Positions 16,594 through 64,000 of a stretch of DNA of 64,000 bases are shown one piece after another (within the stretch, counting starts at the first letter, position 1; each line of letters opens with the position of its first letter). The position numbers and the translations under genes were made by a program. Where the stretch lies: assembly GCF_001659605.2 (NCBI RefSeq), contig NC_035162.2:28263526-28327525 (forward strand), written 5' to 3'. Under the pieces are notes generated by a model, which saw only the letters and a program-made list of their open reading frames with translations, made no database searches and was not told the origin of the DNA. The stretch is from Manihot esculenta. Taxonomy: Eukaryota > Streptophyta > Magnoliopsida > Malpighiales > Euphorbiaceae.

Positions 16594-18761
16594 TGTAATA
16601 CCCGGCTAGAGTCCGGCACCGGAATTCCTGTTGTCTGATAGAATCCGGGGTGTCGGAATTCTAAAAAGGGTAGGATTTATGTTTTACTAGGTGTTATGAT
16701 GTGTTTAAATGTTTTAAGGTTAAGGGAAATGAGTTTGGAGTTGAAATGACCTAAGGCAGATGAGCCAAGTTCGGCCGCCGAAAGTAAGTTCGGCCGCCGA
16801 AAGTGTTTGGCTTCCGAAGGGAAGTTCGGCCCCCGAATGTTGCATGGTGTTGCATGCGATTGGGCAGCCGACATTGAGTTGGCCAGCCCGCTGAGTCATG
16901 GCTTTTGACAGATGTTGGCCTCAGATTCTTGCCATGAATTAGCCACGTCTTCTATGACTCATCTGCAAGTGTTTTGAGCAGCTCATGCAGGAGTTTGCTC
17001 ATTCACCAAGTTTTGAGAGTTTTAGCAAAAAGTGAGTTTGAGAGAGTTTGAGAGTGGGAGAGGAGGTGATCCGTTTTCCCTTGTTCAGAGTGTGTAGTTT
17101 CTTACTACAGGAGGTAAGTGATGTTCTTGAATGTGTTTTCTAAAGGTTTTAGGGGGATTTGTGGAAGGAGATGCATGTTTAGGTTCTTAATGATAGTTTT
17201 GTTGAGTTATGCATGTATACATGTGTATATGTTATGTTTGTTTTGTTGTTTGGGGTTATTAGCTAGTCTTGGACCCCTGTGATCATATACATGAGTATAT
17301 GTATGGTGAGGAGGTGACGTTTGCATGGTTTGAGAAGTTGAAGGAAAGAAGGAGATGGTTTGCCGTTGAAACTGAGTTCTGGATGAACTCAGGTTCGGCA
17401 GCCGAAAGTTCATTCGGCCGCCGAACCTCTTGCATGGTGGCTTAGGCTGCCACAGCTTGCCCCCGAGTGTTTTGCATGTTCGGCTCTGTTTGGGGGATTC
17501 GGCCGCCGAAGGTGCCGCCGAAGGTACTTGAGTTTCGTCTCTGGAGAGGACAATCGGCCGCCGAACCTGCCGCCGAAAGTGTCCTGTCCAGCTTTCTTTT
17601 GCATGCTTTGCATGGATAGTTAAGTGAGTTTCAGGGGATTCTTGGAGAGTTTAATAGAGATATTGATAAGTTAGTTTGGTCCCTCATTTGAGTCTATCTG
17701 TATAGGTACAGACCAGAGGAACCAGAGAGAGCAGCAGTGAGTACTGCTCCAGAGTTTCAGAACCTGCAGAGTCAGTCAGTCCAGATAGCCAGAGGTGAGT
17801 GGAACTAAACTTATGACTTTTAATTGAATCACAAACTGCTTTTAGCATGTCTCATGCATCATGTTTATGCCATAGGTTGATTGCATTAGTATTCACGAAT
17901 ATGTTGCATTGCATTGTTATTTGATGATGTGAGTAAATGCTGAATGATCCAATAGTCACAGACAGGAAGACCAGGAGCCTTTGACTACGCCCTGGCACGT
18001 ATAGCAAAGACCAGGAGCCTTTGACTACGCCCTGGCAGGTATATAGTAAAGTCCAGGAGCCTTTGACTACGCCCTGGCAATGGTAAGTTCACAGGTGTTA
18101 TATACACATATACATATATGACAGGAAGACCAGGTGCTCGATTCTACGCCCTGGCACAGAGTTACTGGGACTATGTGGTGACAGGTTTACTCTTGATGTG
18201 GCTTGTCTGTGATATGGTGCATTCCATGAGATCATATTTTACTGAGATGTTTTACTATTCTACTCACTGGGCTATAGAGCTCATCCCACTCCCTTACCCC
18301 AGTTTTGCAGGTTCAGTGTACAGTGTACAGGGACAGTTCAGCAGAGTACAGAAAAAGTAAAGAGATCTGTAATAGCTTAGAGTGGACATGTAATTTAAAG
18401 AGATGTAATAGTTGTTGCTTGACCTAGTGACCTAGTGAAGTATGTGTTGTACATGATCTGTATATGTATATATGTTTTCCTGTATGTGAAAACCAGGCTT
18501 AACAGGTATGAGATAGCCCATCTAGAGCAAGCTCTAGTCAGGGATACAGAGTACAGAGTACATGAGTACAGAGTACAGAGATAGTGCATGCACAGGTTAA
18601 GCTTTGGTTCAACAAAGAGTTTTATTTTTTTACAGAAAATGTATGATCATGTATGAGATTTACAGGTACACAGAGAGTATAGTAGGCTTGCTACGGGTTC
18701 TGGCGGCCTTAAGCCGACCTGAATCCTAGCGCCGGTGACGGTCCTTTTTGGGGTCGTTACA
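16594..18761 (+). repeat. Tek-B 5' LTR (2168 bp)
   Basis: It starts TGTAATACCC and ends GTCGTTACA. It has palindrome motifs at 16771-16840 and 17395-17580, a donor-like GAGGTAAGT at 17111-17119, a mini-exon-like block at 17706-17794 and four hairpin-type repeats at about 17967-18156. I see no clear TATA box. Confidence 0.95.
17706..17794 (+). other. Mini-exon-like block in Tek-B LTR (89 nt)
   Basis: It is bounded by an acceptor-like CTGTATAG and a donor-like CAGAG then GTGAGT. The borders match those of Tek-H, D, F, A, C and G although the interior sequence has diverged. The copy in the 3' LTR lies 7401 bp further on. Confidence 0.45.
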
Positions 18762-18764
18762 GAT

Positions 18765-18776
18765 TGGTATCAGAGC
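18765..18776 (+). promoter_or_regulatory. Primer-binding site of Tek-B (initiator Met tRNA)
   Basis: TGGTATCAGAGC follows the 5' LTR after a three-base spacer. It is complementary to the 3' end of plant tRNA-iMet, the usual primer of chromoviruses. Confidence 0.9.
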
Positions 18777-18982
18777 CCTAGGTTCACATGATCGGACCTA
18801 TAGAGACAGTGTTGGGCTCAGACAGGGTAGAAGTGGTCAAGTACAATAGGAAATCATGTCCACTAGGATAGGGTCGTGAGTCCTATCTGCTATGATATGC
18901 CATGAGTGTTGTATGTGTATGATTGTTATGTGATATTTATATGCTAAAGTGGTATGTTATATGTTGTGTTTCCAGAGTAAAG

Positions 18983-21900
18983 ATGCGAGGAACTCGTCGA
19001 TCAGCTCGATTGACTGGAGTCCCACCAGAGAGTGAGAGACCAGTTGCTCGTCCTCCTGCATTGCCAAGGGCAAGGTCTCAGAGATCTAGCAGGGAAGGTA
19101 CGTCAATAGACCCAAGAAGGTCTGTAGACGAGAGCAGAAGAGGAACAGTTAGGGGAGGAAGATCAGAGGAAAGGAGGGAAGCTATGGAGATTGATCAGTC
19201 TAGAGATGACAGCATGGGTATAGGCAGTTTTGAGGAAGGTATGGGAGAGTCGCAGGGAGGTGCTCAGGCCTCAGGTTTTGGCTATCCATCCTTGTTTCAG
19301 GAGCCAGAGTATCCGATGGAGGGGATGTCGGAGTACTCTCGATTTGACCCATATCCTACATACATGCCATATATGCCATATCCTCATTATTACCCATCAT
19401 ATCCTATGTATCCCTCTTCCCCTATACATCCAAGTGCAGCACACCTAGAGCCAAATGAACCAAATGACCCAGTACCACCACCAGAACCAGTAGCCCCTGT
19501 TGTTGACAGACATGAACCTAGCTCATCTGGAGGTAAAGTCCAAATGACGGAGTACTTGAAATTGGATGCTCCTAAATACAACACAGGAGATGATCCATTT
19601 GATTACCTCAGAGCAGTTAGGATGATAACTAGTGAATTGGGAGCAGATGATAGGAGAGCCATTGAGATGGCAGGTTTCACAATAAAATGCAAGAAAGCCA
19701 GAGAATGGTTTAAGAATTATGTGGAGCCTAAAATGGACAGCATGTCATGGGGAGAGTTCGCCAATGAGTTTGCAGGGTGGGCTTTTCCTGACAGTTCGAG
19801 GGAGATGAAAGTAATTGAATTTGAACAGTTGAGACAGACAGACGAGATGAGTGTTGATGAATTTACAGATAAGTTTCTGGATCTGCTTCAGTACGTGGGT
19901 CAAGCCTATGATACTGATCAGAAGAAAGCAAGGAGATATACCATGAGACTTCATCCCAGGTATGCTTCCTTGATTCTTCCAGCAGAAAAGGAGAGTTTCC
20001 ATACGATAGTAGACGCAGCCAGGAAAATGGAAGCTAGTGCCAATATTCAGAAACAGTCACAGGCACAAGCTTCGGGTTCTAAGGCCCCCAGTTCAGGTTC
20101 TACAGGCAGTAAGAGATGGGATAGAGCGAGAGGAACAAGGAAAGGGTTCTGGAATAAAGTCAAGTCAGGTCTGGGAATAGGTAGTGGCTCAAGCTCTGGC
20201 ACAGCTCCAGTCTGCAGACGATGCGGAAAACCACATGGAGGAGTTTGTCGGTTGGGATCTACAGCTTGTTTTCGCTGTGGACAGGAAGGGCATATTGCTC
20301 GGGATTGTCCGCAGATGACTTTTGTACCATCCCAGCAGATGAGTTCAGGCAGTGTGGTACAGCCAGTTGTACGGCCAGCAGCCCCAGTCATGCCTCAGAC
20401 TAGTGGCAGAGGTAGAGGGAGAGGGGTAGCCTCTACTTCAGCAGCAGGTTCCCGAGGTGGAAATCCGGTAGCCCCAGCACGGATTTTCACAGTGACACAG
20501 GAGGAGGCTAACACGTCGAACACAGTGGTGTCAGGTAATCTCATCATTGGGTGTTCAGTTGTGTATGCTTTGATGGACCCCGGTGCTTCTCATTCCTTTA
20601 TTGCTTCGAGAGCCATAGAGCGATTGGGTTTGATAAGTTCTGAGTTAGAGTATCCTCTCTGGGTCAGTGGACCTAGATGTGACCCATCAGTGGCAGTGTC
20701 AGTCTGTCGTTTCAGTCCAGTGTTCATAGAGGGTAGATGCCTTCCAGCTGACCTGGTGGTTCTAGATTTGACAGATTTTGATGTCATTCTAGGGATGGAT
20801 TGGCTATCTGCATATAGTGCTACTTTGGACTGTAGAGAAAAGCTAGTGAGTCTCAGAGACCAGGATGGGTCAGAGTGTGTCTTCAGAGGAGACAGGAGAG
20901 GTACACCCAGAGGTATGATTTCAGCCCTTCAGGCTCGTCGGTTGCTTAGGAGGGGTTGTCAGGGGTTTCTAGCTCATGTGAGAGAGCTAGACAGTCAGGT
21001 AAGGGAACCAGCCACAGTACCAGTAGTACGAGAGTTTCTCGATATGTTCCCAGACGATTTGCCAGGACTACCACCTGATAGGGAGATAGGGTTTGAAATT
21101 GAATTACTGCCAGGTACTAGACCTATCTCTATTCCTCCCTACAGGATGGCGCCAGCTGAGTTAATAGAGTTGAAAGCACAGTTGCAGGACTTGGTAGATA
21201 AGGGTTTCATCCGCCCTAGTACCTCACCTTGGGGTGCTCCAGTGCTCTTTGTCAGAAAGAAGGATGGATCCCTCAGACTTTGTATCGACTACAGACAGTT
21301 GAACAAGGTCACTATCAAGAATAGATATCCCTTACCTCGGATTGATGATCTATTTGACCAGCTAGCTGGAGCAGGTTGTTTCTCGAAAATAGATCTGAGA
21401 TCTGGGTATCATCAGTTGAGAGTCAGAGAGGCAGATGTGCCTAAGACAGCTTTTAGGACCAGATATGGGCATTATGAGTTCTTAGTGATGCCGTTCGGGT
21501 TGACTAACGCCCCTGCAGCATTTATGGATCTCATGAACAGGGTATTCAGTGAGTTTCTGGATCACTTTGTCATTGTGTTTATCGATGATATCTTAGTGTA
21601 TTCCAGAGATGCAGAGGAGCATGCCCAGCATCTGAGGATCGTTTTACAGACACTGCGAGAGCATGGTTTATATGCCAAGTTCTCGAAGTGTGAGTTTTGG
21701 TTACGGAGCATTGCCTTCTTGGGACATGTGGTATCAGCAGAGGGTATTGAGGTAGACCCCAAGAAGATAGAGGCTGTAGCTAACTGGCCCAGACCCACGA
21801 CAGTGACTGAGATGAAAAGCTTTCTGGGACTGGCGGGTTACTACAGGAGGTTCGTTCAGAACTTCTCAAAGATAGCAGCTCCTATGACCAAACTGACTCA

Positions 21901-23994: not shown

Positions 23995-26162
23995 TGTAAT
24001 ACCCGGCTAGAGTCCGGCACCGGAATTCCTGTTGTCTGATGGAATCCGGGGTGTCGAAATTCTAAAAAGGGTAGGATTTATGTTTTACTAGGTGTTATGA
24101 TGTGTTTAAATGTTTTAAGGTTAAGGGAAGTGAGTTTGGAGTTGAAATGACCTAAGGCAGATGAGCCAAGTTCGGCCGCCGAAAGTAAGTTCGGCCGCCG
24201 AAAGTGTTTGGCTTCCGAAGGGAAGTTCGGCCCCCGAATGTTGCATGGTGTTGCATGCGATTGGGCAGCCGACATTGAGTTGGCCAGCCCGCTGAGTCAT
24301 GGCTTTTGACAGATGTTGGCCTCAGATTCTTGCCATGAATTAGCCACGTCTTCTATGACTCATCTGCAAGTGTTTTGAGCAGCTCATGCAGGAGTTTGCT
24401 CATTCACCAAGTTTTGAGAGTTTTAGCAAAAAGTGAGTTTGAGAGAGTTTGAGAGTGGGAGAGGAGGTGATCCGTTTTCCCTTGTTCAGAGTGTGTAGTT
24501 TCTTACTACAGGAGGTAAGTGATGTTCTTGAATGTGTTTTCTAAAGGTTTTAGGGGGATTTGTGGAAGGAGATGCATGTTTAGGTTCTTAATGATAGTTT
24601 TGTTGAGTTATGCATGTATACATGTGTATATGTTATGTTTGTTTTGTTGTTTGGGGTTATTAGCTAGTCTTGGACCCCTGTGATCATATACATGAGTATA
24701 TGTATGGTGAGGAGGTGACGTTTGCATGGTTTGAGAAGTTGAAGGAAAGAAGGAGATGGTTTGCCGTTGAAACTGAGTTCTGGATGAACTCAGGTTCGGC
24801 AGCCGAAAGTTCATTCGGCCGCCGAACCTCTTGCATGGTGGCTTAGGCTGCCACAGCTTGCCCCCGAGTGTTTTGCATGTTCGGCTCTGTTTGGGGGATT
24901 CGGCCGCCGAAGGTGCCGCCGAAGGTACTTGAGTTTCGTCTCTGGAGAGGACAATCGGCCGCCGAACCTGCCGCCGAAAGTGTCCTGTCCAGCTTTCTTT
25001 TGCATGCTTTGCATGGATAGTTAAGTGAGTTTCAGGGGATTCTTGGAGAGTTTAATAGAGATATTGATAAGTTAGTTTGGTCCCTCATTTGAGTCTATCT
25101 GTATAGGTACAGACCAGAGGAACCAGAGAGAGCAGCAGTGAGTACTGCTCCAGAGTTTCAGAACCTGCAGAGTCAGTCAGTCCAGATAGCCAGAGGTGAG
25201 TGGAACTAAACTTATGACTTTTAATTGAATCACAAACTGCTTTTAGCATGTCTCATGCATCATGTTTATGCCATAGGTTGATTGCATTAGTATTCACGAA
25301 TATGTTGCATTGCATTGTTATTTGATGATGTGAGTAAATGCTGAATGATCCAATAGTCACAGACAGGAAGACCAGGAGCCTTTGACTACGCCCTGGCACG
25401 TATAGCAAAGACCAGGAGCCTTTGACTACGCCCTGGCAGGTATATAGTAAAGTCCAGGAGCCTTTGACTACGCCCTGGCAATGGTAAGTTCACAGGTGTT
25501 ATATACACATATACATATATGACAGGAAGACCAGGTGCTCGATTCTACGCCCTGGCACAGAGTTACTGGGACTATGTGGTGACAGGTTTACTCTTGATGT
25601 GGCTTGTCTGTGATATGGTGCATTCCATGAGATCATATTTTACTGAGATGTTTTACTATTCTACTCACTGGGCTATAGAGCTCATCCCACTCCCTTACCC
25701 CAGTTTTGCAGGTTCAGTGTACAGTGTACAGGGACAGTTCAGCAGAGTACAGAAAAAGTAAAGAGATCTGTAATAGCTTAGAGTGGACATGTAATTTAAA
25801 GAGATGTAATAGTTGTTGCTTGACCTAGTGACCTAGTGAAGTATGTGTTGTACATGATCTGTATATGTATATATGTTTTCCTGTATGTGAAAACCAGGCT
25901 TAACAGGTATGAGATAGCCCATCTAGAGCAAGCTCTAGTCAGGGATACAGAGTACAGAGTACATGAGTACAGAGTACAGAGATAGTGCATGCACAGGTTA
26001 AGCTTTGGTTCAGCAAAGAGTTTTATTTTTTTACAGAAAATGTATGATCATGTATGAGATTTACAGGTACACAGAGAGTATAGTAGGCTTGCTACGGGTT
26101 CTGGCGGCCTTAAGCCGACCTGAATCCTAGCGCCGGTGACGGTCCTTTTTGGGGTCGTTACA
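23995..26162 (+). repeat. Tek-B 3' LTR (2168 bp)
   Basis: It has the same length as the 5' LTR. Differences seen are near offsets 45-60 (two), 136, and one in the last 150 bp (GGTTCAGC for GGTTCAAC). It is followed by the TCTAT duplication and the resumed Tek-A RT gene. Confidence 0.96.
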
Positions 26163-26167
26163 TCTAT

Positions 26168-27125: not shown

Positions 27126-29399
27126 TGTAACGACCCGGAAACCGGTACCCCTCAGTAACGGTCCGAACCATCACTGGCACTAGGATCCAGATCGGCTTAA
27201 GGCCGCCGGGACCCGTAGCAAGCCGACTATACTCTCTGTGTACCTGATAAATCCCAGACATGATACAAATAGACTCAACAATCCTGTAAAACTCTGTAGG
27301 CTTAACTACTGCTACTCAGATATGTCAATCTGAAATGGCCCTCCGGGCCTATACCAGGGACTACTATCTGCTGTGGGTCATGGGAATGAAACCCTTTTAA
27401 TCTGTAACACATTCCACTGGTATCTCATCGAAGTCATACATTAAGCCTAACTCACACATTTCTCATCAAGAAACGTAAAACAGGATTCATGTACAGGGGA
27501 TTAAGCAAACATCACACAACAGCAAAAACACTAGGGAAAGCACAAGTCTATCCGTATATGACAGTACAGATCTAGACATTACATGACCGTTAATCTGTTA
27601 ATTACATCATGTCCACTACACTATTACAGCATACATTCAAGCACAACTTTCCTCTGTCCTCTTGCTGACTTTGATTTCCCATAGCTATCTCAAGACCTGC
27701 AAAACTGGGGTTAAGGGAGTGGGATGAGCTCTAGAGCCCAGTGAGGAGGAACACTAAAACAGTTCATTAAGTACATGCTCTCATGAAATGCATCACATCA
27801 CAAACATATCATCTCAAGGATGAATTTGTCACCAATAACCCTCAACTACATGTTATAATAATGCCAACTGTGCCAAGGAGACTATGTCATCACCTGGTCT
27901 ACACTTATCTCTCTGATATCACACCATGACTAACTGTGCCAAGGAGACGAGGTCTCACCTGGTCTACACTTAACTCTGATTTGACAGCCCAGCTGTCTCA
28001 CTCATAGTACCAGGAGCGACCTGGACTATCCAGGGGCGACCTGGTATGGCTATCTCATGCCATAATTCTGTATCTGCTCTCTGTCAAGGGCTAAGGATCA
28101 TCCAACATTCATCCACAGGAACAACAACATATGCAATGCATCATATTCGTGAAGTCTAATGCACACAACCTAATATATAACATGGCAGTTTATGATGTAT
28201 GGATCATGCTAGAATCATGTCATTTCTTAAGATCAATATTCAGTTTAGTTCCACTCACCTGTAGCCACTGCTTGGCTAACTCTGGGCTACCTCTAACTCT
28301 GAAACAGCTACGACGACTGCTAAACACCTCGGTTCCTCGGGTCCAATCCTACAATGGAGGACGCAAATGAGGCACCAAACATACTCTATACAACTGAGAA
28401 ACAACTCCCCAAACCCCTCTAGACTACCTCAAAATATGCATGCAAAACAAGCAAAGGAAGGCTGGACAGGGCACCTTCGGCGGCACCTTCGGCGGCCGAA
28501 TGTCTCCTCCAGAGACGAAAGTCAGGCATGTTCGGCGGCCTAACTTGGACTTTCGGCGGCCGAACCTGAGTTCATCCAGAACTCAGTTTCGTGCACAAGG
28601 ACGCCTGCCAGTCCCTCCATCACCTGCTCAGCCCTCAATACATGCAGTTAACCCCTCTAAAACATGCATAAACACTTAAACAAGCATAAAGGAGCATCAA
28701 ACAACTTAAATGCCAACAAAACAATACACATAACATGCTTACACCATTAAAACATCAAAACTATACCTAACACCTATATAAACAACTCTACCCTTAACCT
28801 CCTTACAAGCTGTTCATAAACCATGAAAACAAGTTAAAAGCTTCCCTTACCTCTTGAAACCAGATGCTGGGACAACCTAAACACTGAACTATGGCCACCA
28901 CGACTTCACCTTCACCACACCTCCAACACTCTTCTTTTCTCTCAAAACCTTTCAAACCACTTAGACACAACCAACCCTCTGCATAAGCTGATAAAAGTTT
29001 GCAGATGAGTCATGGGAGACGTGGCCTAACCTCTGGCAATGATCTGGAGGTGAACACCTGGCCAAATCACTGGCTGAGGAGTGCACAATAGCTGGCTGAC
29101 CAGCTCAGCTTCGGCTGCCGAATCGCATGCAAAACCATGCAACATTCGGGGGCCGAACTTGAGTTTCGGGGGCCGAACATTGGGCACTTTCGGCGGCCGA
29201 ACTTACCTTCGGCGGCCGAACCTGGCCTTTGTCCCCAAAGCCTTTTCTTTTCACAACGCAATCCTATTCTATGCCAAATCTTACAAAGTCTTAAAAAAAC
29301 ATTTAGCAACTCTTTCAAATACCTTACTAGCAGTCTCTGACATCCCCGAAGTCCACCGGACGGTAGGAATTCCGATGTCTGACTTAGCTGGGTATTACA
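27126..29399 (-). repeat. Tek-C 3' LTR (2274 bp)
   Basis: Minus-strand termini are TGTAATACCC-like (at 29399, with one change, ACCCAGC for ACCCGGC) and GGTCGTTACA. It has a mini-exon-like block at 28259-28348, palindromes at 28474-28566 and 29107-29223, and hairpin repeats around 27870-28050. Confidence 0.95.
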
Positions 29400-33170: not shown

Positions 33171-33431
33171 CCTGCCTCTGTAAAGCACAACATCACACAA
33201 ACATATCAGCAAATGATCCATGTGAGAATACATGAATCCACAACACATATAAAGAACATATCAATAATGCACATGCAACTCATCATGGCATTCCACATCA
33301 GCATGCAAGACAGGACTCCACATCCTATCCTAGTGGACATGATTTTAACTTATTGTGCTTCCCTTCCTATACAAGACAACACCTCTTTCCGATGTGGGAT
33401 ATCTCAACACACCGTACTCTTGAGGCCCTAA

Positions 33432-33443
33432 GCTCTGATACCA
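33432..33443 (-). promoter_or_regulatory. Primer-binding site of Tek-C (initiator Met tRNA)
   Basis: TGGTATCAGAGC lies on the minus strand three bases from the 5' LTR. It is perfectly conserved although the coding interior is not. Confidence 0.9.
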
Positions 33444-33446
33444 ATC

Positions 33447-35720
33447 TGTAACGACCCGGAAACCGGTACCCCTCAGTAACGGTCCGAACCATCACTGGCA
33501 CTAGGATCCAGATCGGCTTAAGGCCGCCGGGACCCGTAGCAAGCCGACTATACTCTCTGTGTACCTGATAAATCCCAGACATGATACAAATAGACTCAAC
33601 AATCCTGTAAAACTCTGTAGGCTTAACTACTGCTACTCAGATATGTCAATCTGAAATGGCCCTCCGGGCCTATACCAGGGACTACTATCTGCTGTGGGTC
33701 ATGGGAATGAAACCCTTTTAATCTGTAACACATTCCACTGGTATCTCATCGAAGTCATACATTAAGCCTAACTCACACATTTCTCATCAAGAAACGTAAA
33801 ACAGGATTCATGTACAGGGGATTAAGCAAACATCACACAACAGCAAAAACACTAGGGAAAGCACAAGTCTATCCGTATATGACAGTACAGATCTAGACAT
33901 TACATGACCGTTAATCTGTTAATTACATCATGTCCACTACACTATTACAGCATACATTCAAGCACAACTTTCCTCTGTCCTCTTGCTGACTTTGATTTCC
34001 CATAGCTATCTCAAGACCTGCAAAACTGGGGTTAAGGGAGTGGGATGAGCTCTAGAGCCCAGTGAGGAGGAACACTAAAACAGTTCATTAAGTACATGCT
34101 CTCATGAAATGCATCACATCACAAACATATCATCTCAAGGATGAATTTGTCACCAATAACCCTCAACTACATGTTATAATAATGCCAACTGTGCCAAGGA
34201 GACTATGTCATCACCTGGTCTACACTTATCTCTCTGATATCACACCATGACTAACTGTGCCAAGGAGACGAGGTCTCACCTGGTCTACACTTAACTCTGA
34301 TTTGACAGCCCAGCTGTCTCACTCATAGTACCAGGAGCGACCTGGACTATCCAGGGGCGACCTGGTATGGCTATCTCATGCCATAATTCTGTATCTGCTC
34401 TCTGTCAAGGGCTAAGGATCATCCAACATTCATCCACAGGAACAACAACATATGCAATGCATCATATTCGTGAAGTCTAATGCACACAACCTAATATATA
34501 ACATGGCAGTTTATGATGTATGGATCATGCTAGAATCATGTCATTTCTTAAGATCAATATTCAGTTTAGTTCCACTCACCTGTAGCCACTGCTTGGCTAA
34601 CTCTGGGCTACCTCTAACTCTGAAACAGCTACGACGACTGCTAAACACCTCGGTTCCTCGGGTCCAATCCTACAATGGAGGACGCAAATGAGGCACCAAA
34701 CATACTCTATACAACTGAGAAACAACTCCCCAAACCCCTCTTGACTACCTCAAAATATGCATGCAAAACAAGCAAAGGAAGGCTGGACAGGGCACCTTCG
34801 GCGGCACCTTCGGCGGCCGAATGTCTCCTCCAGAGACGAAAGTCAGGCATGTTCGGCGGCCTAACTTGGACTTTCGGCGGCCGAACCTGAGTTCATCCAG
34901 AACTCAGTTTCGTGCACAAGGACGCCTGCCAGTCCCTCCATCACCTGCTCAGCCCTCAATACATGCAGTTAACCCCTCTAAAACATGCATAAACACTTAA
35001 ACAAGCATAAAGGAGCATCAAACAACTTAAATGCCAACAAAACAATACACATAACATGCTTACACCATTAAAACATCAAAACTATACCTAACACCTATAT
35101 AAACAACTCTACCCTTAACCTCCTTACAAGCTGTTCATAAACCATGAAAACAAGTTAAAAGCTTCCCTTACCTCTTGAAACCAGATGCTGGGACAACCTA
35201 AACACTGAACTATGGCCACCACGACTTCACCTTCACCACACCTCCAACACTCTTCTTTTCTCTCAAAACCTTTCAAACCACTTAGACACAACCAACCCTC
35301 TGCATAAGCTGATAAAAGTTTGCAGATGAGTCATGGGAGACGTGGCCTAACCTCTGGCAATGATCTGGAGGTGAACACCTGGCCAAATCACTGGCTGAGG
35401 AGTGCACAATAGCTGGCTGACCAGCTCATCTTCGGCTGCCGAATCGCATGCAAAACCATGCAACATTCGGGGGCCGAACTTGAGTTTCGGGGGCCGAACA
35501 TTGGGCACTTTCGGCGGCCGAACTTACCTTCGGCGGCCGAACCTGGCCTTTGTCCCCAAAGCCTTTTCTTTTCACAACGCAATCCTATTCTATGCCAAAT
35601 CTTACAAAGTCTTAAAAAAACATTTAGCAACTCTTTCAAATACCTTACTAGCAGTCTCTGACATCCCCGAAGTCCACCGGACGGTAGGAATTCCGATGTC
35701 TGACTTAGCCGGGTATTACA
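33447..35720 (-). repeat. Tek-C 5' LTR (2274 bp)
   Basis: It is the equal-length partner of 27126-29399. Differences seen are near 34741, 35430 and 35710. Confidence 0.95.
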
Positions 35721-37208: not shown

Positions 37209-37457
37209 CCTGTTTTCTGAAAACAGTACACATCATACAAACATTAGCATCATATGGTTCATGTGGGCACACATGAACCCTCATCACATATACATCATTC
37301 ATATCATTAATGCACATGCATAAAGTCATGGCATTTCACATCATCATGCAAGACAGGACTCAACATCCCATCCTAGTGGACATGACCTTCCTATTGTGCT
37401 TGACCTTCTAGAACATCTATGAGCCCGACACTCTAGGTCCGACCATATGAACCTAGG

Positions 37458-37469
37458 GCTCTGATACCA
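37458..37469 (-). promoter_or_regulatory. Primer-binding site of Tek-A (initiator Met tRNA)
   Basis: TGGTATCAGAGC on the minus strand is three bases from the 5' LTR that begins at 37473. Confidence 0.9.
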
Positions 37470-37472
37470 TTC

Positions 37473-46233: not shown

Positions 46234-46572
46234 TGTAATACCCGGCTAGACTCCGGTATCGAAATTCCTACCGTCCGGTGGAATCTCGGATGTCGAAAAC
46301 CTCTAGAAGGGGTAAAACCATGTTTTCATAAAATGTTTTAATGTATTTTATGGTTTTAAGCAAGAAAGAAATTAAGTTTTGAATGAAAATGGTCTTGTGA
46401 GGAAGACTTAGGTTCGGCCGCCGAACATGCATGCACTTCGGGAGTGATTTAGGCCCCCGAAAGCATAAGTGAGGGAAGTCCAGGTTCGGCCACCGAACCT
46501 TATGTTCGGCCGCCGAACATGGGATGCATGCGGAGGCACGTTCGGCTCCCGAATGTGGCCTGGCCAGCCACC

Positions 46573-46579
46573 TATAAAG
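46573..46579 (+). promoter_or_regulatory. TATA box of Tek-D LTR
   Basis: TATAAAG lies about 20 bp downstream of the first palindrome cluster, which places the cluster in U3 and the rest of the LTR in the transcribed leader. Confidence 0.65.
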
Positions 46580-47473
46580 GGGTCCCTTAGCCGAAATGGG
46601 CAAGTTTTCTCCCCATTTTCGGCCAAGGTGAGCTCTCCGCCATCCCTCGCCGATTTTGAGTCCTTTTCTTCAAATCTTTCATGATTTTTATAAGTTTGCA
46701 ACTTTGTTTTGAAGATCTTTGAGCATAAAGCGAGTTTTGAAGCTTGAAAGACTCAGGAGCTCTCTCCCTCCGTTCTCCAAGTTTAGGTCACCTCCCCTCT
46801 CGATCTTCAAGAGGTAAGGGTTGATCTTGAACTCTTTTTATGTTTTAAACAAGTTTTATGAAGATCTATGGGTAGAAATGCATGTTAGGTTATATTGAAG
46901 TTCTTGGGTTCATGTTTAGTTTTTGAGCAATGTATGATGTTTGTGGTTGTTTGATGTGTTGTAGTTGGGGTTTAAGGTAGTTTGAAGCCCCTAGGAGCTG
47001 ATATATGTTTCTATGCATGTTTTGGTTGGGTTGGATGCATGATTGAAAGGTTGGGAGGCATTTGTGCATGTTGGAGCTGAGTTTCTGCCACTTTGGAGAA
47101 ACTCAGGTTCGGCCGCCGAAGGGACTTTCGGCCGCCGAACCCGCTTATGGAGGCAGCATTCGGCTGCCTAAGCCTGCCCCCGAAAGAGGACTTTCGTCTC
47201 TGGAGGGCAGTTTCGGCCGCCGAAGGTGCCCCCGAACATGTATGAGTTTCGTCTCTGTCTGGGGGTTCGGCCGCCGAAGATGCCGCCGAACCTGCCTGAC
47301 TTTCGGCTCTGGAGGGACTTTTGGCCGCCGAACCTGCCGCCGAAAGTGCCCTGTTCAGCCTTCCTTTGCATGTTTTCTATAGATGTTTTGAGGTGTTTTA
47401 GGGGGTTTTTGGGGGAGTACTTTAGAGTCATGTTTATGTATGTTGGGTCCCTCATTTGAGTCCACCTGTGTAG

Positions 47474-47545
47474 GTTCGGGCCCGAGGAACCGAGGACCCC
47501 AGCAGTGAGATAGCTGCTTTCGAGTCTTATCAGAGCTAGCCAGAG
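47474..47545 (+). other. Mini-exon-like block in Tek-D LTR (72 nt)
   Basis: The acceptor-like CTGTGTAG precedes it and CAGAG then GTGAGT follows. The upstream donor-like AAGAG then GTAAG is at 46809-46818. Confidence 0.45.
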
Positions 47546-48475
47546 GTGAGTGGAATAACTCTCTATGATTTCAAAATAAATAATGAATGTTTTAGCATGA
47601 TTCACGCATCATGAATGCCATGAGATATATTAGGGTGCTTGCATTAGAATTCACGAATATGTTGCATTGCATATTATGTTGTTGATGTGGATGAATGTTG
47701 AATGATCCATTAGCCCTTATATGGTATGATATGACAGACTATGGAAGTCCGGGTGAGCCTGCACTACGCCCCCGGCATGATTGGATATGTATGTTATGCT
47801 ATGGAAGTCCAGGTGTACCTGCACTACGCCCCTGGCATGATTAGACGGTATGGAGGGCTAAGTGGTGACAAGTTCATCCTTGACGTGAAATGTTTGTGTT
47901 GTGATGCATTCCATGATATCATATGTCTTAAATACTATGTTTTATTATTCTGCTCACTGGGCTCTAATAGCTCACCTCTCTCCCTTAACCCCCAGGTTTG
48001 CAGGTACAGGGTAGACCAGGAGGTCAGCAGGAATAGAGCCTTGTGTATGTAATAGTTAGAAGTGGACATGAATATGATGTAATGTAAAAGTATAGTTGAA
48101 TGTAATGTAATGATGTTATTGAGGATAGAATGTGCTTGACCATAGTATGTTGAAATCCCTTTTTAGATACATGATCTCAAAATGTTTATGGATGTTTATG
48201 TTTAACCAAACTTAATGCATGATTATGTCACCCCATTGGAGCTTTGATGAGGACTCCAAGGTGGGTTTAATGTTAATGTCTATGTATGGTGTATGCACAG
48301 GTTGAGTTTGGTTTATGAATGAAAAAGAAAAGTCCAAAATTTTTATGTATGTGTTGATCATGTATGGGATTAAACAGGTTTACAGGATGAATGTTAGGCT
48401 TGCTACGGGTCCCGGTGGCCTTATGCTGACCTGGATCCTAGCACCGATAGCGGTCCGGATTTTCAGGTCGTTACA

Positions 48476-49900: not shown

Positions 49901-51672
49901 TGTAATATCTGACTAGACCCCGGCATCGGAATTCATACTTTTCGGCGATTTACCGTTGGAATTTTGAATTCAAGGATGTCGGAGTTTCCTGGAAGGGTAA
50001 AAGAAAGGGTTTTCCAAAATGTTTTTAGTGTTTTGTTTAAGAAACGTTGAAGTTTTGAAAAGAAAAGACTAAGGAGGGAAATGCAAGGTTCGACCGCCGA
50101 ACCTCACTTTCGGCCGCCGAAGGTGGCTTGCTTTCGTTGCCACCGAAGCCCAAGTTCGGCTTCCAAACGTGGTGAAGCTATGGAAACAGCTCTGGCCGCT
50201 GAAGGTGGTTGACCGACCACCTATAAAAGGGTCTCTTATCCGGATTTGAGGTGAGTTTTCTCTCTCTTTTCGAGTATAGGTGAGTTCTTGACCTCCTTTG
50301 GTTGATTTCTTGGTTTTCTTTCAAGTTGAGCAAGTTTTAAGTAGTTTTTATGTTGGTTTTGAAGTTTTTGAGCAAAGAAGCAAAGTTGTGAGGCTTGGAG
50401 AGTCTGGATCTATTTTCCCTTGCATCTCCGAGTTTTGACCATTAATCCTCTCGATCTTCAAAAGGTAAGCATAGATCCTCACCTTTTCTTATGGTTTAAG
50501 TGTGTTTTGAAGGGTTTAAGTGAGGTTTTTGCATGTTTATGCATGGTTTGCATGGATAGGGTTTATGTTGATCATAAGCCATATGTGTGTATATGTGTTG
50601 TTTTTGGGGGTTTGAGCTAGTTCTAAGCCCTTATATGTATGCAGAAGGGTATATGCATGTGTTTGAGTCTACCTGTGTAGGATCGGACCCGAGGAACCAA
50701 GGAGGCCCTTAGAGTTAGCTGGTTCAGAGGTATTCCAGCGTCTACTAGAGGTGAGTAGAACTAAACTATGTTTTACATTCAATGAACGGTTTTAGTATGA
50801 CTCATGCATCATAATGCTATGTATATGACTCATGCATCATAATGCCATGTATATATGTTAGGTTGTTTGCATTAGTATTCACGAATATGATGCATTGCAT
50901 AATATGTTGTTGACGTGGATGGATATTGGAGGATCCTTTAACCCTTGATGTGATATGATATGATATGAGATGGAAAGACCAGGTGTGGCCTAATCGCCCC
51001 TGGCACAGTGGAAGAGAATACCAGGTGTGGCCTAATCGCCCCTGGCATAGTGGACATGTTACGATCTATAGAGGGTTATTGGTGACAAGTCCATCCATGA
51101 TGTTACTTGTTTGTGATGTGATGCATTTCATGGAAGCATGTTTTATTAAATGATTTTATTAGTGCTATACTCACTGAGCTCTAGTAGCTCACCCCTTTTC
51201 CCTAACCCCTAGGTTTGCAGGGCCAGAGATAGCATGGGATAGCTACAGGAGAAAAGTTTATGTAATAGTTTAGTAGTGGACATGTATTGTAAAATGATGT
51301 AAAACTATGTAATGTATATTGATGATAGAATTGTGCTTGGCCCTAGAGTTGGTTGATCCCTTTTGTACATGATCTGTATATTCTTATGTTTTATAATGAT
51401 ATATGATGAGAACCAAGCTTAAGATATGTAATGATGACCCAACTAGAGCATTTGATGAGGGCTGTAGTATGGGGTTTATGTGTACAGAGATGGTGTGCAT
51501 GCACAGGTTAAGCTTGGTAGATGTAAAGTTTCAAAATTTTTATGGAAATGGTTGATCATGTATGGGATTTACCAGGTTTACAGAATGCATAGTAGGCTTG
51601 TTACGGGTTCTAGCGACCTTAAGTCGATCTGAATCCTAGCACCGGTAGCGGTCCGATCTCCGGATCGTTACA
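49901..51672 (+). repeat. Tek-F 5' LTR (1772 bp)
   Basis: The start has decayed to TGTAATATCTGAC where the 3' LTR keeps TGTAATACCCGGC. The TATA box is at 50222-50229 and the mini-exon-like block at 50681-50750. Two copies of the 43-bp hairpin-type repeat lie at about 50976-51052. This family has far fewer palindromes than the others. Confidence 0.93.
50681..50750 (+). other. Mini-exon-like block in Tek-F LTR (70 nt)
   Basis: Acceptor-like CTGTGTAG precedes it and TAGAG then GTGAGT follows. The copy in the 3' LTR is 57799-57868, of the same length. The upstream donor-like GTAAGC is at 50465. Confidence 0.45.
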
Positions 51673-51675
51673 GAT

Positions 51676-51687
51676 TTGTATCAGAGC
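51676..51687 (+). promoter_or_regulatory. Mutated primer-binding site of Tek-F
   Basis: TTGTATCAGAGC stands in place of TGGTATCAGAGC, one mismatch next to the LTR end. Confidence 0.7.
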
Positions 51688-51932
51688 TCTAGGTTCATAT
51701 GGTTGGACCTAGAGAGTGTTGGGCTCATAGATGTTATAGAAGCGCAAGCACAATAGAATCAATCATGTCCACTAGGATAGGATGTAGAGTCCTGTCTTGC
51801 TGATGATGTGAAATGCCATGACTTTTTGCATGTGCATTCATGATATGTTATGTATGTTATGGGTTCATGTGTTTTCACATAGACAATATGATGCTAATGT
51901 TATGTGTATGTGTTGTGTTTTTAGAAGTCAGA

Positions 51933-56979: not shown

Positions 56980-57017
56980 GGAACATTCGGGGACGAATGT
57001 TCTTAAGCGGGGGAGAA
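56980..57017 (+). promoter_or_regulatory. Polypurine tract and inverted repeat of Tek-F
   Basis: GAACATTCG and CGAATGTTC flank a short loop and are followed by TTAAGCGGGGGAGAA. One pyrimidine interrupts the tract. Confidence 0.75.
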
Positions 57018-58832
57018 TGTAATACCCGGCTAGACCCCGGCGTCGGAATTCATACTTTTCGACGGGTTTACCGTTGGAATTTTGAATTCAAGGATGTCGG
57101 AGTTTCCTGGAAGGGTAAAAGAAAGGGTTTTCCAAAATGTTTTTAGTGTTTTGTTTAAGAAACGTTGAAGTTTTGAAAAGAAAAGACTAAGGAGGGAAAT
57201 GCAAGGTTCAGCCGCCGAACCTCACTTTCGGCCGCCGAAGGTGGCTTGCTTTCGTTGCCACCGAAGCCCAAGTTCGGCTTCCGAACGTGGTGAAGCTGTG
57301 GAAACAGCTCTGGCCGTCGAAGGTGGTTGACCGGCCACCTATAAAAGGGTCCCTTATCCATATTTGAGGTGAGTTTTCTCTCTCTTTCTAGGTATAGGTG
57401 AGTTCTTGACCTCCTTTGGTTGATTTCTTGGTTTTCTTTCAAGTTGAGCAAGTTTTAAGTAGTTTTTATGTTGGTTTTGAAGTTTTTGAGCAAAGAAGCA
57501 AAGTTGTGAGGCTTGGAGAGTCTAGATCTGTTTTTCCTTGCATCTCCGAGTTTTGACCATCAATCCTCTCGATCTTCAAGAGGTAAGCATGGATCCTCAC
57601 CTTTTCTTATGGTTTAAGTGTGTTTTGAAGGGTTTAAGTGAGGTTTTTGCATGTTTATGCATGGTTTGCATGGGTAGGGTTTATGTTGATCATAAGCCAT
57701 ATGTGTGTATATGTGTTGTTTTTGGGGGTTTGAGCTAGTTCTAGGCCCTTATATGTATGCAGAAGGGTATATGCATGTGTTTGAGTCCACCTGTGTAGGA
57801 TCGGACCCGAGGAACCAATGAGGCCCTCAGAGTTAGCTGGTTCAGAGGTATTCCAGCGTCTACTAGAGGTGAGTAGAACTAAACTATGTTTTACATTCAA
57901 TGAATAGTTTTAGCATGACTCATGCATCATAATGCTATGTATATGACTCATGCATCATAATGCCATGTATATATGTTAGGTTGTTTGCATTAGTATTCAC
58001 GAATATGATGCATTGCATAATATGTTGTTGATGTGGATGGATATTGGAGGATCCTTTAACCCTTGATGTGATATGATATGATATGAGATGGAAAGACCAG
58101 GTGTGGCCTAATCGCCCCTGGCACAGAGTAAGAGAAGACCAGGTGTGGCCTAATTGCCCCTGGCATAGTGGAAGAGAAGACTAGGTGTGGCCTAATCGCT
58201 CCTGGCACAGTGGACATGTTACGATCTGTAGAGGGTTATTGGTGACAAGTCCATCCGTGATGTTACTTGTTTGTGATGTGATGCATTTCATGGAAGCATG
58301 TTTTATTAAATGATTTTATTAGTGCTCTACTCATTGGGCTCTAGTAGCTCACCCCTTTTCCCTAACCCCCAGGTTTGCAGGGCCAGAGATAGCATGGGAT
58401 AGCTACAGGAGAAAAGTTTATGTAATAGTTCAGTAGTGGACATGTATTGTAAAATGATGTAAAACTATGTACTGTATATTGATGATAGAATTGTGCTTAG
58501 CCCTAGAGTTGGTTGATCCCTTTTGTACATGATCTGTATATTCTTATGTTTTATAATGATATATGATGAGAACCAAGCTTAAGATATGTAATGATGACCC
58601 AACTAGAGCATTTGATGAGGGCTCTAGTATGGGGTTTATGTGTACAGAGATGGTGTGCATGCACAGGTTAAGCTTGGTAGATGTAAAGTTTCAAAATTTT
58701 TATGGAAATGGTTGATCATGTATGGGATTTACCAAGTTTACATAATGCATAGTAGGCTTGCTACGGATTCCGGCGACCTTAAGTCGATCTGAATCCTAGC
58801 GCCGGTAGCGGTCCGGTTCCTGGGTCGTTACA
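57018..58832 (+). repeat. Tek-F 3' LTR (1815 bp)
   Basis: It carries three copies of the 43-bp hairpin-type repeat (about 58094-58215) against two in the 5' LTR, which accounts for the length difference. The TATA box is at 57340-57347. Confidence 0.93.
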
Positions 58833-58999
58833 CCCTTGGCCACTTTTTTAGAAATTATTTAAGACTTGGTTGGCAGAGAGTTATGGATGAGTACCAATCA
58901 TTCGCACACTCAATAAAAATAAATGATAAGATGTGCAAAATATATAAATATGTTTTCATTAAAAATTACAAAAAGTTACATGAGAGGAAGGATGTTTTC

Positions 59000-60127: not shown

Positions 60128-60538
60128 TGTAGCACCCAGTTCTTTATCAAGACTTACCTTCGCCTAAAAAACACGAGTCTTCACATAAAGTTACCGTTAA
60201 CAGATACAATCCAGCAGATCTCCATTAAGCCTGTAACCACGGGATCCCTGATCAATTAGTCTATGGGATCTCCTATCAATTAGTCAGCACCAACCGGATT
60301 TCCAAAAAATACTATAATTAACTCAATCTTCTTACAGTATAAAAGCTAACGATTGCAGAGACAAATGTACACAATTCTTACACAATAGCTCTTGAATTCT
60401 AAGCAATTCATTATACTTGCCCTATTCTTCAGTTTACTAACTTAAGCGTCGAAGTGGCCATTGTAGGTGCCAACCACCTTATGTTCTCTTTCTTGCAGGA
60501 TTAACCAATTGCAGTACAACTCTATTTTGACCATATCA
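60128..60538 (+). repeat. Putative Tat-2 3' LTR (about 411 bp)
   Basis: It starts TGTAGCACCC and has a TATA box (TATAAAAG) at 60338-60345. Then come ACTTAAGCGTCGAAGTGG and, further on, TCTTTCTTGCAGG, both typical of short plant Tat-type LTRs. The end is placed at a CA near 60538. Only one copy is in the window, so the borders are estimates. Confidence 0.5.
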
Positions 60539-61628: not shown

Positions 61629-61633
61629 CATTC

Positions 61634-61909
61634 TGTAACAGCCCGGCCCCGTACGACCGGCCCTGTTACCGCTCACAGCCCGTGACCTTCCTCTGGGCCC
61701 AGCCACTGTGAGCAGCTCTTAACATCCCTTCACCCTCACGGGTTCCAGGCAGGATTTGTCCCTCGGGGGAGCCATTACGGCCCGCCCTAGCCCGAGTGGA
61801 TTTGGCCCAATTCCTTCCTCTGGGAATTAGGTCGCCTCCCCCACTGCTCGAACCCTTGACCTCCCACTTTAAGGGAATAGTCTGGTGAGAGTGAGTACCA
61901 ATTGTTCCA
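61634..61909 (-). mobile_element. SINE-like copy 1 (276 bp, minus)
   Basis: On the minus strand it starts TGGAACAATTGGTACTC, like a tRNA A box. A B box (GGGTTCGAGC) follows about 54 nt after the start. Both together mark a tRNA-derived Pol III head. It is preceded by CATTC (61629-61633). Confidence 0.6.
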
Positions 61910-61910
61910 A

Positions 61911-62186
61911 TGGAACAATTGGTACTCACTCTCACCAGACTATTCCCTTAAAGTGGGAGGTCAAGGGTTCGAGCAGTGGGGGAGGCGACCTAATTCCCAG
62001 AGGAAGGAATTGGGCCAAATCCACTCGGGCTAGGGCGGGCCGTAATGGCTCCCCCGAGGGACAAATCCTGCCTGGAACCCGTGAGGGTGAAGGGATGTTA
62101 AGAGCTGCTCACAGTGGCTGGGCCCAGAGGAAGGTCACGGGCTGTGAGCGGTAACAGGGTCGGTCGTACGGGGCCGGGCTGTTACA
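61911..62186 (+). mobile_element. SINE-like copy 2 (276 bp, plus), inverted partner of copy 1
   Basis: It is the reverse complement of copy 1 with one difference noticed (GGGTCGG for GGGCCGG near 62160). The two heads meet at a single A (61910). The A box is near 61911-61922 and the B box near 61964-61973. The identical 89-codon ORFs on the two strands are a by-product of this symmetry. Confidence 0.6.
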
Positions 62187-62210
62187 TAAAAAGGCGCCTT
62201 TTTATGTAAC
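62183..62210. repeat. Perfect short palindrome joining SINE-like copies 2 and 3
   Basis: A 28-bp stretch, TTACATAAAAAGGC followed by its reverse complement, spans the junction. It is made of the two TGTAA ends plus a central AAAAAGGCGCCTTTTT. Confidence 0.8.
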
Positions 62211-62502
62211 AGCCCGGACGTGATCCCCGGCACTGTTACCGTTCACACCCAGGGCTATCCCTCGCCTGGCCTCTTGCCACCTCGGGCTTTCCACTGGCGT
62301 ATGAACAGCTCTTAACATCCCTTCACCCTCACGGGTTCCGGGCAGGATTTGTCCCTCGGGGGAGCCATTACGGCCCGCCCTAGCCCGAGTGGATTTGGCC
62401 CAATTCCTTCCTCTGGGAATTAGGTCGCCTCCCCCACTGCTCGAACCCTTGACCTCCCACTTTAAGGGAATAGTCTGGTGAGAGTGAGTACCAATTGTTC
62501 CA
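62205..62502 (-). mobile_element. SINE-like copy 3 (298 bp, minus), diverged tail
   Basis: It has the same orientation as copy 1. The head half, from the Pol III boxes to GGGTTCCGGGCAGG, is nearly identical, but the distal 100 bp differ (CGGACGTGATCCCC). CATTC at 62501-62505 overlaps its last two bases and may be the TSD of the composite or of the adjacent LTR. Confidence 0.55.
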
Positions 62503-62505
62503 TTC

Positions 62506-64000
62506 TGTAACGACCCGGAATCCGATACCCCTCTGTAACGGCCCGAACCATCACCGGCGCTAGGATCCAGATCGGCTTAAGGCCGCCGGGACCCGTAGCA
62601 AGCCAACATACATACTATTTCCTGGTAAAATCCCGTGCATGAACAAAAACTTAAACATAAAGCCTGAAATCTGAACATACACCAAGCTTGATCCGTATGC
62701 TACAACATAACTGTGAACATAAACTTTCCCATGCTAGAGCCCTCATCAAATGCTCTAGCTGGGTCAAGATTACATACATCAAGCCTGGTTCTCAACTCAA
62801 CATAAAAACATTTCATAATCATGCATCAACAGGGATTAACCAAACTATAGGGCCAAGCACACGCTAATCCATAAACATTAACTCTACTATCAGCTACATA
62901 CATTATCTCAAATTACATTACCTCAACTTATAATACAAGTCCACTTCTAAAACTACTAAACTGATACATAAACATAAACTATTACATAAAACACACGTCT
63001 CTTAATCTTTACCCTGCTGACTTCTGAGCTCTGACTTAAACCTGCAACACTGGGGTTAGGGGGGAGGGGTGAGCTAAAAAGCCCAGTGAGTAGAAACAGA
63101 GAAAACAGTTCATTAATTATGATTTCATTTTACCAAAAACATTTGCTTTAATTCCTCCATTTTTAGGTATATTATTATTCATTTAACTTCTTCTTTCTTT
63201 TTCTTATTCATGCTTTCATGAAATGCGTCATAACACAGAGAAATCACATAATCTTGTCCGTCTCGGGGCTTATGCAAGATTTATTCCCCACGGACCCTGG
63301 TTTCTGAGAGTCTGTCTTTTTGCATGCATCTTTCCTCTCAGAGGATGGACATGACATCAAAAATCCCTCTGTCGGTGCCCGGCTCCCCCATAGGAGCTCA
63401 CAAAGGCCTGTAACATACATGACATGGTGTCTGGTCCACAGAGAGCTCACATGGACTTTCCTACATGTACTTGTCCGGCTCTCAAAGGACTAAGACAAGA
63501 CTCGTGACAGATATGGGCTATTGAAGTCGCCTCGGTCCACCCTACCTCAGCATCAACATGAAATAATGCAATGCAACATATTCGTGAACTAGTGCAATCA
63601 ACCTACTATACATAATCATGATGCATGCTCATGCTTTAGGCGTTAGATTTCGTGCATAAAAGATTAAGTTTAGTTCTACTCACCTCCTGGCAGACGCTGA
63701 CTGACTCTGCAACTGCTAGCACTACTGGCTTCCTCGGTCCCTCGGGTCCGATCCTACACAGGTGGACTCGAATGAGGTGCCAAACACACTCTAACAACTC
63801 ATAAACATACCCCCAAAAACCCCTCAAAACATCACTAAAACATGCATGGAAAACACCCAAGAAACGGCTGGACAGGGCACTTTCGGCGGCACCTTCGGCG
63901 GCCGAAAGTCTCTTCCAGAGACGAAACTCGGGTAGGTTCGGCGGCAGGTTCGGCGGCCGAAACCCTAGGACAGAAACGAAAGTCCCTCCTTCGGGGGCAC
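62506..64000 (-). repeat. Tek-G: LTR of a Tekay-type element, truncated by window end
   Basis: On the minus strand it ends GGGTCGTTACA at 62506, with the CTAGCGCCGGTGATGG block typical of the group. The mini-exon-like block is 63684-63753 and a palindrome array runs from about 63880 to the window end. A run of 63110-63230 is unusually AT-rich. It is a distinct family, not a copy of Tek-A to F. Confidence 0.85.
63684..63753 (-). other. Mini-exon-like block in Tek-G LTR (70 nt)
   Basis: On the minus strand CTGTGTAG precedes it and CAGGAG then GTGAGT follows, as in the other LTRs. Confidence 0.45.

Follow-up and report, generated by a model that had tools for sequence, protein, structure and literature searches.

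In a 64,000-nt stretch of the Manihot esculenta genome (NCBI RefSeq assembly GCF_001659605.2, contig NC_035162.2, forward-strand positions 28,263,526 to 28,327,525; in the following called the window), long terminal repeat (LTR) retrotransposons, which we take to be Tekay-type chromoviruses as the first-pass annotation of this DNA did, very probably carry two spliceosomal introns in their leaders, so that the spliced RNA would serve as mRNA and the unspliced RNA as genomic RNA. This reading is based on the positions, conservation and spacing of the sites, on the pattern of upstream ATGs, and on the recurrence of the arrangement in the genome. Seven families (A, B, C, D, F, G, and H) with 11 LTR copies share one order of sites: TATA, donor 1, acceptor 1, mini-exon, donor 2, LTR end, primer binding site (PBS), and an acceptor next to the gag ATG (gag acceptor). 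The TATA box in this order lies inside the window in A, D, and F, and just beyond its edges in H and G.

Predicted Splice Sites and Their Positions

With a slash for the predicted junction, the consensus sequences are CARRAG/GTAAG for donor 1, TRTAG/G for acceptor 1, and AG/GTGAGT for donor 2. The mini-exon and donor 2 were found in 11/11 LTR copies of the window, and donor 1 in all ten copies that are long enough to contain it. The gag acceptors at 18975, 51924, 37217 (minus strand), and 33178 (minus strand) are located 7–8 nt upstream of the gag ATG in 4/4 elements. In all four leaders that are whole in the window, donor 2 precedes the PBS and the gag acceptor follows it, which places the PBS inside intron 2. 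The features are as follows (TSD, target site duplication; introns and mini-exons are predicted):

16594..18761, plus strand: B 5' LTR; TSD TCTAT; 99.8% identical to the 3' LTR
17114..17705, plus strand: B intron 1; donor GAG/GTAAGT, acceptor TATAG/G
17706..17794, plus strand: B mini-exon, 89 nt, 0 ATG
17795..18975, plus strand: B intron 2 with LTR end and PBS; donor GAG/GTGAGT, acceptor TTTCCAG
18983..18985, plus strand: B gag ATG, 7 nt past the acceptor
23995..26162, plus strand: B 3' LTR; donor 1 24514/24515; mini-exon 25107–25195
37473..39788, minus strand: A 5' LTR; TSD TTCAA; TATA 39412
38512..39173, minus strand: A intron 1; first intron base after donor 1 39173
38441..38511, minus strand: A mini-exon, 71 nt
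37217..38440, minus strand: A intron 2 with PBS; acceptor TTTTCAG; branch-like CTAAT
11657..13952, minus strand: A 3' LTR; first intron base after donor 1 13357; mini-exon 12625..12695
33447..35720, minus strand: C 5' LTR; TSD CTGCC
34670..35171, minus strand: C intron 1; first intron base after donor 1 35171
34580..34669, minus strand: C mini-exon, 90 nt
33178..34579, minus strand: C intron 2 with PBS; acceptor TTTACAG; branch-like CTGAT
27126..29399, minus strand: C 3' LTR; first intron base after donor 1 28850; mini-exon 28259..28348
49901..51672, plus strand: F 5' LTR; TSD CCCTT; TATA 50222; 94% identical to the 3' LTR
50465..50680, plus strand: F intron 1, just 216 nt
50681..50750, plus strand: F mini-exon, 70 nt
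50751..51924, plus strand: F intron 2 with PBS; acceptor TTTTTAG; branch-like CTAAT
57018..58832, plus strand: F 3' LTR; mini-exon 57799..57868
46234..48475, plus strand: D 3' LTR; TATA 46573; donor 1 46813/46814; mini-exon 47474–47545
1..1680, plus strand: H LTR, cut by the window edge; donor 1 40/41; mini-exon 639–706; TATA in the flank (L036)
62533..64000, minus strand: G LTR, cut by the window edge; mini-exon 63684–63753; donor 1 and TATA beyond the edge, in the flank (L035)

The first-pass annotation had already described a splice-like leader in these LTRs. Every coordinate it gave was checked and is correct, and the sites it named are present, with three motif details corrected: donor 2 of C reads ACAG/GTGAGT, donor 1 of the F 5' LTR reads AAG/GTAAG, and acceptor 1 of B reads TATAG. 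Acceptor 1 is the weakest site of the scheme.

Conservation and Strength of the Sites

In the LTR alignment, donor 1 was invariant in 7/7 columns across six families and donor 2 in 8/8 columns across all seven, compared to mean identities of 0.69 and 0.59 in the flanks of donor 1, 0.54 after donor 2, and 0.65 in the body of the mini-exon. Fully invariant windows of seven positions were rare (32 of 1703 usable, in 16 runs), and two of these runs correspond exactly to the donors. Further invariant runs have no splice character, including CACGAATATG, TGTAATAG, and the GGCCGCCGAA repeats, so that conservation by itself is no proof of splicing.

Splice-site strength was assessed by a simple score with weights based on the plant consensus. 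Among all GT sites, donor 1 and donor 2 ranked 1 and 2 of 200 in A, 1 and 4 of 207 in B, 3 and 2 of 236 in C, 1 and 2 of 165 in F, 1 and 2 of 161 in D, and 2 and 3 of 131 in H, and donor 2 of G ranked 1 of 120. The gag acceptor ranked 7, 3, 3, and 2 in A, B, C, and F, respectively. The first-pass annotation had named, as a refutation of its scheme, divergence of the junction bases at the same pace as the sequence around them; this was not found for the invariant donors or the recurrent gag acceptor. The exception is acceptor 1, which is not invariant.

Three other features of the LTRs were recorded. At offset 1456–1475 of the A 5' LTR, within intron 2, CACGAATATG..GCATTGCAT forms two runs that are invariant in 7/7 families. 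U3 and intron 1 contain numerous copies of a near-palindromic GTTCGGCCGCCGAA motif (e.g., at offsets 182–189, 906–915, and 1086–1136 of the A 5' LTR). Furthermore, a third acceptor-like site is located at LTR offset 1855 in A, 1717 in B, 1703 in C, 1320 in F, 1770 in D, 1218 in the H part, and 959 in the G part; it consists of a pyrimidine tract with tandem AGs ending in TGCAG/G, and is followed 40–68 nt later by the invariant TGTAATAG and a TGTAA-rich stretch.

Spacing between TATA and Donor 1

Donor 1 follows the TATA box at a near-constant distance of 238 nt in A, 240 nt in D, and 242 nt in F, although intron 1 varies between 216 and 662 nt in the window. The two-intron model predicted donor 1 of G and the TATA boxes of H and G beyond the window edges, and the flanks contained both TATA and donor 1 in either family, 240 nt apart (2/2); the equality of this spacing was spotted only after the flanks had been read. 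A TATA box common to all families was rejected, as B and C have none at the aligned position.

Distribution of Upstream ATGs

For counting ATGs, transcription was assumed to start 31 nt past TATA (A, D, and F) or, where there is no TATA, 160 nt before donor 1 (B and C). The first-pass annotation had expected splicing to remove many upstream ATGs, and this holds for all four whole leaders, in which predicted splicing lowers the number from 109 to 0 in A, from 64 to 2 in B, from 72 to 1 in C, and from 88 to 1 in F. The mini-exons of the seven families contain 0 ATGs in 530 nt, and exon 1 contains 5 in 990 nt across six families (H contributing 40 nt alone); including the flanks, exon 1 holds two ATGs in G and one in H. 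Intron 1 contains 118 ATGs in 3230 nt, and intron 2 contains 256 in 4981 nt (four elements) and 157 in 3055 nt (three partial ones). Random leader segments of the same lengths as the mini-exons contained a mean of 21.4 ATGs, and none of 20,000 draws was free of them.

The mini-exon is poor in T (14–22% vs. 30–41% in the introns). Its lack of ATGs was rejected as independent proof because base composition accounts for it, and a special ATG enrichment of the introns was rejected because ATGs are equally in excess in U3. The informative part is therefore the contrast between exons and introns.

Recurrence in the Genome

The exact string spanning LTR end and PBS has 5787 copies in the host genome (640 Mb in 86 contigs), and the reversed control has none. 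We sampled 20 loci, taking every fifth of the first 100 listed, which places all of them in the first 10.6 Mb of contig C1; the sample is thus not a genome-wide random one. A CAG with a T-rich tract was located 5–11 nt before the gag ATG in 20/20 loci. Compared to all acceptors between PBS and gag, it ranked first in 17 loci and second or third in the other three. Two loci (L054 and L056) were excluded from the LTR counts, since other sequence interrupts the LTR before the mini-exon. In an alignment anchored on the mini-exon core and made without use of the donor, AGGTGAGT was invariant in 17/17 loci, with pairwise identities around donor 2 of 0.56–0.93. A further LTR (L050), whose sites were read separately and which is outside the 17-locus counts of alignment and ATGs, also has a mini-exon and donor 2, so that AG/GTGAGT is present in all 18 LTRs that reach the mini-exon. 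CTATAAA was found in 6/17 loci, 234–249 nt before donor 1.

The ATG pattern of the window recurred in the sample. Mini-exons contained 0 ATGs in 1336 nt (17 loci) vs. 40.3 per kb in intron 2, and the 14 loci with a strong donor 1 contained 30.5 ATGs per kb in intron 1 and 11.8 in exon 1. In these 14 leaders, predicted splicing lowers the ATG number from 54–109 to 1–3. A weaker test is provided by 30 close relatives of B, which are 98–100% identical to the query: acceptor 1 and donor 2 motifs were present in 30/30 and donor 1 in 29/30. In one sampled locus (L048; G000:C1:3035521-3038271), the stretch from U3 to intron 1 is apparently deleted, with sequence resembling an LTR start directly before the mini-exon; mini-exon, donor 2, and gag acceptor are retained.

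Gag Acceptors in Elements outside the Window

Four loci were identified within bacterial assemblies, two of which (L001 and L003) extend to the gag start. The others were left out, as the match in L002 did not yield a translation and begins at position 691 with the gag start outside the view, and L004 is a match of 303 nt. L001, L002, and L003 carry a plant-like chromovirus pol in records named after bacteria and are evidently contamination. L001 shows a branch-like CTGAC and a CCTAG one base before the gag ATG, and L003 shows a CTATAG four bases before it. When scored for an acceptor within 9 nt against all 2726 ATGs in the window, the gag ATGs of A, B, C, F, L001, and L003 each rank in the top 0.4–7%, with a combined p-value of 2.5e-7, which is generous since A, B, C, and F are related. 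Three additional gag starts in the 40 kb beside the window also have an acceptor. Searches of viral contigs with two LTR patterns gave no matches, and gag and pol gave six and one stretches, respectively, none of which was confirmed. By protein, plasmids and phages yielded distant reverse transcriptases (RTs) alone, with less than 60% identity, which were not used.

Proposed Fates of Spliced and Unspliced RNA

From these data we infer splicing itself, the transcription start, the use of the mini-exon, and the division into mRNA and genomic RNA. Transcription would start in the LTR shortly past the TATA box, and exon 1, of about 200 nt, would end at donor 1. Intron 1 (216–710 nt in the measured copies) would lie entirely within the LTR and be followed by the ATG-free mini-exon of 68–90 nt, after which donor 2 would be joined to the acceptor 5–11 nt before the gag ATG. 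Excision of intron 2, of about 1.1–1.5 kb, would remove the remaining LTR, the PBS, and the leader. In the spliced RNA, gag would begin at the first to fourth AUG, and this RNA would serve as mRNA; it could not prime cDNA, because intron 2 contains the PBS (4/4), and would thus not be copyable. The unspliced RNA would retain the PBS together with tens of upstream AUGs, be poorly translated, and serve as genomic RNA. As the LTR copies keep intron 1 (10/10) and donor 2 (11/11), the RNA that was transposed must have been unspliced at these places; the corresponding argument of the first-pass annotation, that the transposing RNA must be unspliced, is sound in its logic. The use of the mini-exon may vary, since acceptor 1 is weak and not invariant.

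More tentatively, leader splicing might be an RNA-fate switch of the whole Tekay clade, perhaps older, in which the spliced fraction would set the balance between translation and copying. Under the same tentative extension, 3' and solo LTRs might represent portable promoter-plus-donor cassettes, because the LTR contains the promoter and both donors together with exon 1 and the mini-exon; either could then splice into neighbouring host exons.

The sites bear on the question of how LTR elements allot a single RNA to translation and to copying. The two-intron reading would explain why the leader is 2 kb long and holds as many as 109 upstream ATGs, and exact junctions are now available for comparison with existing long-read RNA. 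It also leads one to expect LTR-driven chimeric host transcripts that are joined at two fixed donors. Annotated gag starts and 5' untranslated regions (UTRs) of Tekay-type elements may be wrong if introns were ignored.

Opposing Observations and Alternative Explanations

Several observations weigh against two functional leader introns. Acceptor 1 is weak; it ranked 8–31 among acceptor candidates and has TAG in 14/17 sampled loci, with L042, L047, and L048 keeping just an AG five bases further on. A strong donor 1 was present in 14/17 sampled loci (15/18 with L050), and the sampled sites were in part selected for strength: donor 1 was chosen as the best-scoring GT within a range, and for the gag acceptor the best of the AGs within the final 14 nt was taken. 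LTR blocks without an assigned role are conserved as strongly as the donors. CTATAAA was not seen in 11/17 sampled loci, and the exon 1 start of B and C, which lack TATA at the aligned place, is an assumed one. With regard to ATGs, their absence from the mini-exon is expected from composition (1.2 in dinucleotide shuffles, P 0.24), exon 1 does hold some at the densities given above, and the introns are ATG-rich but U3 equally so. The acceptor of L003 is the weakest of the six (top 7%), and a strong donor was not found in the last 1233 nt of its LTR, which either counts against the reading or indicates a different 5' part in elements outside the window group. Moreover, a Nanopore study of triticale reported its one Ty3/gypsy GAG-RNA as lacking introns, the clade being unstated in the passage concerned (PMC7765848).

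The weakness of acceptor 1 also suits an explanation in which splicing is real and its main product a different one, either because the mini-exon is usually skipped, so that donor 1 is paired with the gag acceptor, or because donor 2 is joined to the third acceptor (TTGCAG/G, e.g., at offset 1717 of the B LTR). The latter would give short LTR-only RNAs whose terminal exon is short and is followed by a UGUA-rich region resembling a poly(A) region. The third acceptor with its pyrimidine tract and subsequent TGTAATAG is present in 7/7 families, and TGTAA motifs cluster just past it (2–5 within 110 nt), so this site and TGTAATAG could provide the LTR with a terminal exon and a poly(A) region of its own; the same features hint at short spliced RNA made by the 3' LTR or by solo LTRs as well. 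However, the LTR-only path leaves many ATGs before gag when used in the 5' LTR, and a mini-exon kept in 18/18 sampled LTRs reaching that far is hard to explain if it is always skipped. We consider a different main product unlikely. Non-splicing roles for the donor-like sites appear more improbable still. They might bind the U1 small nuclear ribonucleoprotein (snRNP) against premature polyadenylation in the 5' LTR, or be transcription-factor sites, with the RNA left unspliced; unpaired donors can block premature polyadenylation in other systems, and the LTRs contain other conserved blocks without splice character. Left unexplained are the gag-adjacent acceptor in 20/20 loci, the branch-like CTAAT, CTGAT, or CTGAC in A, C, F, and L001, and the upstream ATG pattern.

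We give very little weight to a long leader that is bypassed by ribosome shunting, an internal ribosome entry site, or a second promoter near gag, with the splice-like sites being secondary. RNA pools from two promoters are described for BARE in passages of PMC3735527; here, however, 64–109 upstream ATGs would have to be bypassed, the alignment, as judged by eye, shows no conserved TATA-like block between PBS and gag, and the spacing between TATA and donor 1 is near constant. Chance, or shared descent of non-functional motifs, has the least claim of all and borders on the negligible. The seven families are related and their sites thus not independent, but the LTRs are only 57–78% identical and their flanks diverge where the donors do not, and donor 2 is retained in the genome sample, where pairwise identities around it are 0.56–0.93. 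As far as the donors and the gag acceptor are concerned, the sequence data already contradict this explanation.

Elements and Other Features of the Window

Ty3/gypsy elements are nested within one another in the window, and four of them (A, B, C, and F) are complete. Element D has its 3' LTR alone inside the window, and H and G are truncated by the window edges. Perfect 5-bp TSDs, as expected for the Tekay clade, flank 4/4 complete elements, and the 5' and 3' LTRs are 99.8% identical in B, 99.7% in C, 98.6% in A, and 94% in F. Between the seven Tekay-type families, LTR identity is 57–78%. The LTRs of the window elements are 1.77–2.32 kb long, which is longer than those of CRM and Reina (about 0.4–1.3 kb) and shorter than complete Tekay LTRs (2.6–3.0 kb) in a table of PMC3605345.

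Pfam domains of element B comprise gag, zf-CCHC, RVP_2, RVT_1, RT_RNaseH, and H2C2, with rve and SH3_Tf2-1 in a second frame, the frame being broken between 22864 and 22883; their order is the gag-PR-RT-RH-INT of Ty3/gypsy elements. The C-terminus of the second frame gave a Chromo match (E 9.3e-5, 22.7 bits) below the 25.1-bit cut-off. Among the 7988 best candidates scored, the sole gag match was a cassava protein with 68% identity; its pol and that of element B share 89% identity. Scans of the window for Rfam families and tRNAs were without a match.

Outside the Tekay-type elements, a further Ty3/gypsy polyprotein is encoded at 7899–11765 (minus strand). It has an additional match to RNase H (RVT_3), and we take it to be Tat/Retand-like; it adjoins an array of 76-bp tandem repeats at 6519–7806. 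Two neighbouring open frames are located at 3755–4774 and 4775–6052 (plus strand), the first without a Pfam or NCBIfam match and the second with weak MscS-porin and SMC matches under the cut-offs. Adjoining LTR G, an inverted repeat spans 61631–62189 (99% identity, 279-nt arms, 1 nt between them), with an additional 201-nt copy nearby at 62302–62502.

Comparison with Known Systems

A 2025 review describes plant LTR elements as generally intronless, with exceptions including Ogre and EVADE (passage in PMC12786077). Within openly licensed papers, leader splicing of Tekay elements was unreported in the titles and abstract openings found. No word beginning with 'splic' occurs in a study of beet chromoviruses that includes Tekay (PMC3605345), in a study of the chromovirus LORE1 (PMC2832683), or in PMC3059260, PMC4079200, and PMC11728184, and the searched passages of PMC9097378 and PMC12112155 contain nothing on splicing of Tekay leaders. 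According to a passage of a sunflower survey, the set of expressed elements is without a Tekay element (PMC7730604), and such absence may explain why leader splicing is hard to see.

The nearest published precedent found is in maize, in tandem repeats derived from CRM4, which belongs to another chromovirus clade, and not in an intact element (PMC3648361). Three polyadenylated cDNAs of these repeats have 5' ends 18, 40, and 43 nt past TATA; most of the UTR is spliced out in all three, and one has an extra splice in the LTR. Conservation of the sites, a gag-adjacent acceptor, and the removal of upstream ATGs are not described for these repeats in the relevant passages of that paper. Separate RNA pools for translation and reverse transcription, with one capped pool spliced, are also known from barley BARE1, according to passages of PMC3735527. 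BARE1 differs in being a Ty1/copia element with a 104-nt intron in gag that favours Gag over Pol, and in drawing its pools from two promoters. Further plant LTR elements with spliced RNA are Ogre (Tat lineage), EVADE (copia), and CRR (passages of PMC12786077, PMC6317226, and PMC3735527). Their introns lie in or between coding regions, that of Ogre between open reading frames, whereas splicing removes the protease in EVADE and RT in CRR; a leader intron inside the LTR is described for none of the three in these passages.

The predicted arrangement also resembles retroviral 5' leaders, in which a strong donor sits in the leader and the intron-bearing RNA is the genome. In orthoretroviruses, the leader donor is located past the PBS, and gag is translated from unspliced RNA. 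Unlike in orthoretroviruses, gag of the Tekay-type elements would come from spliced RNA, and the predicted introns begin in the LTR.

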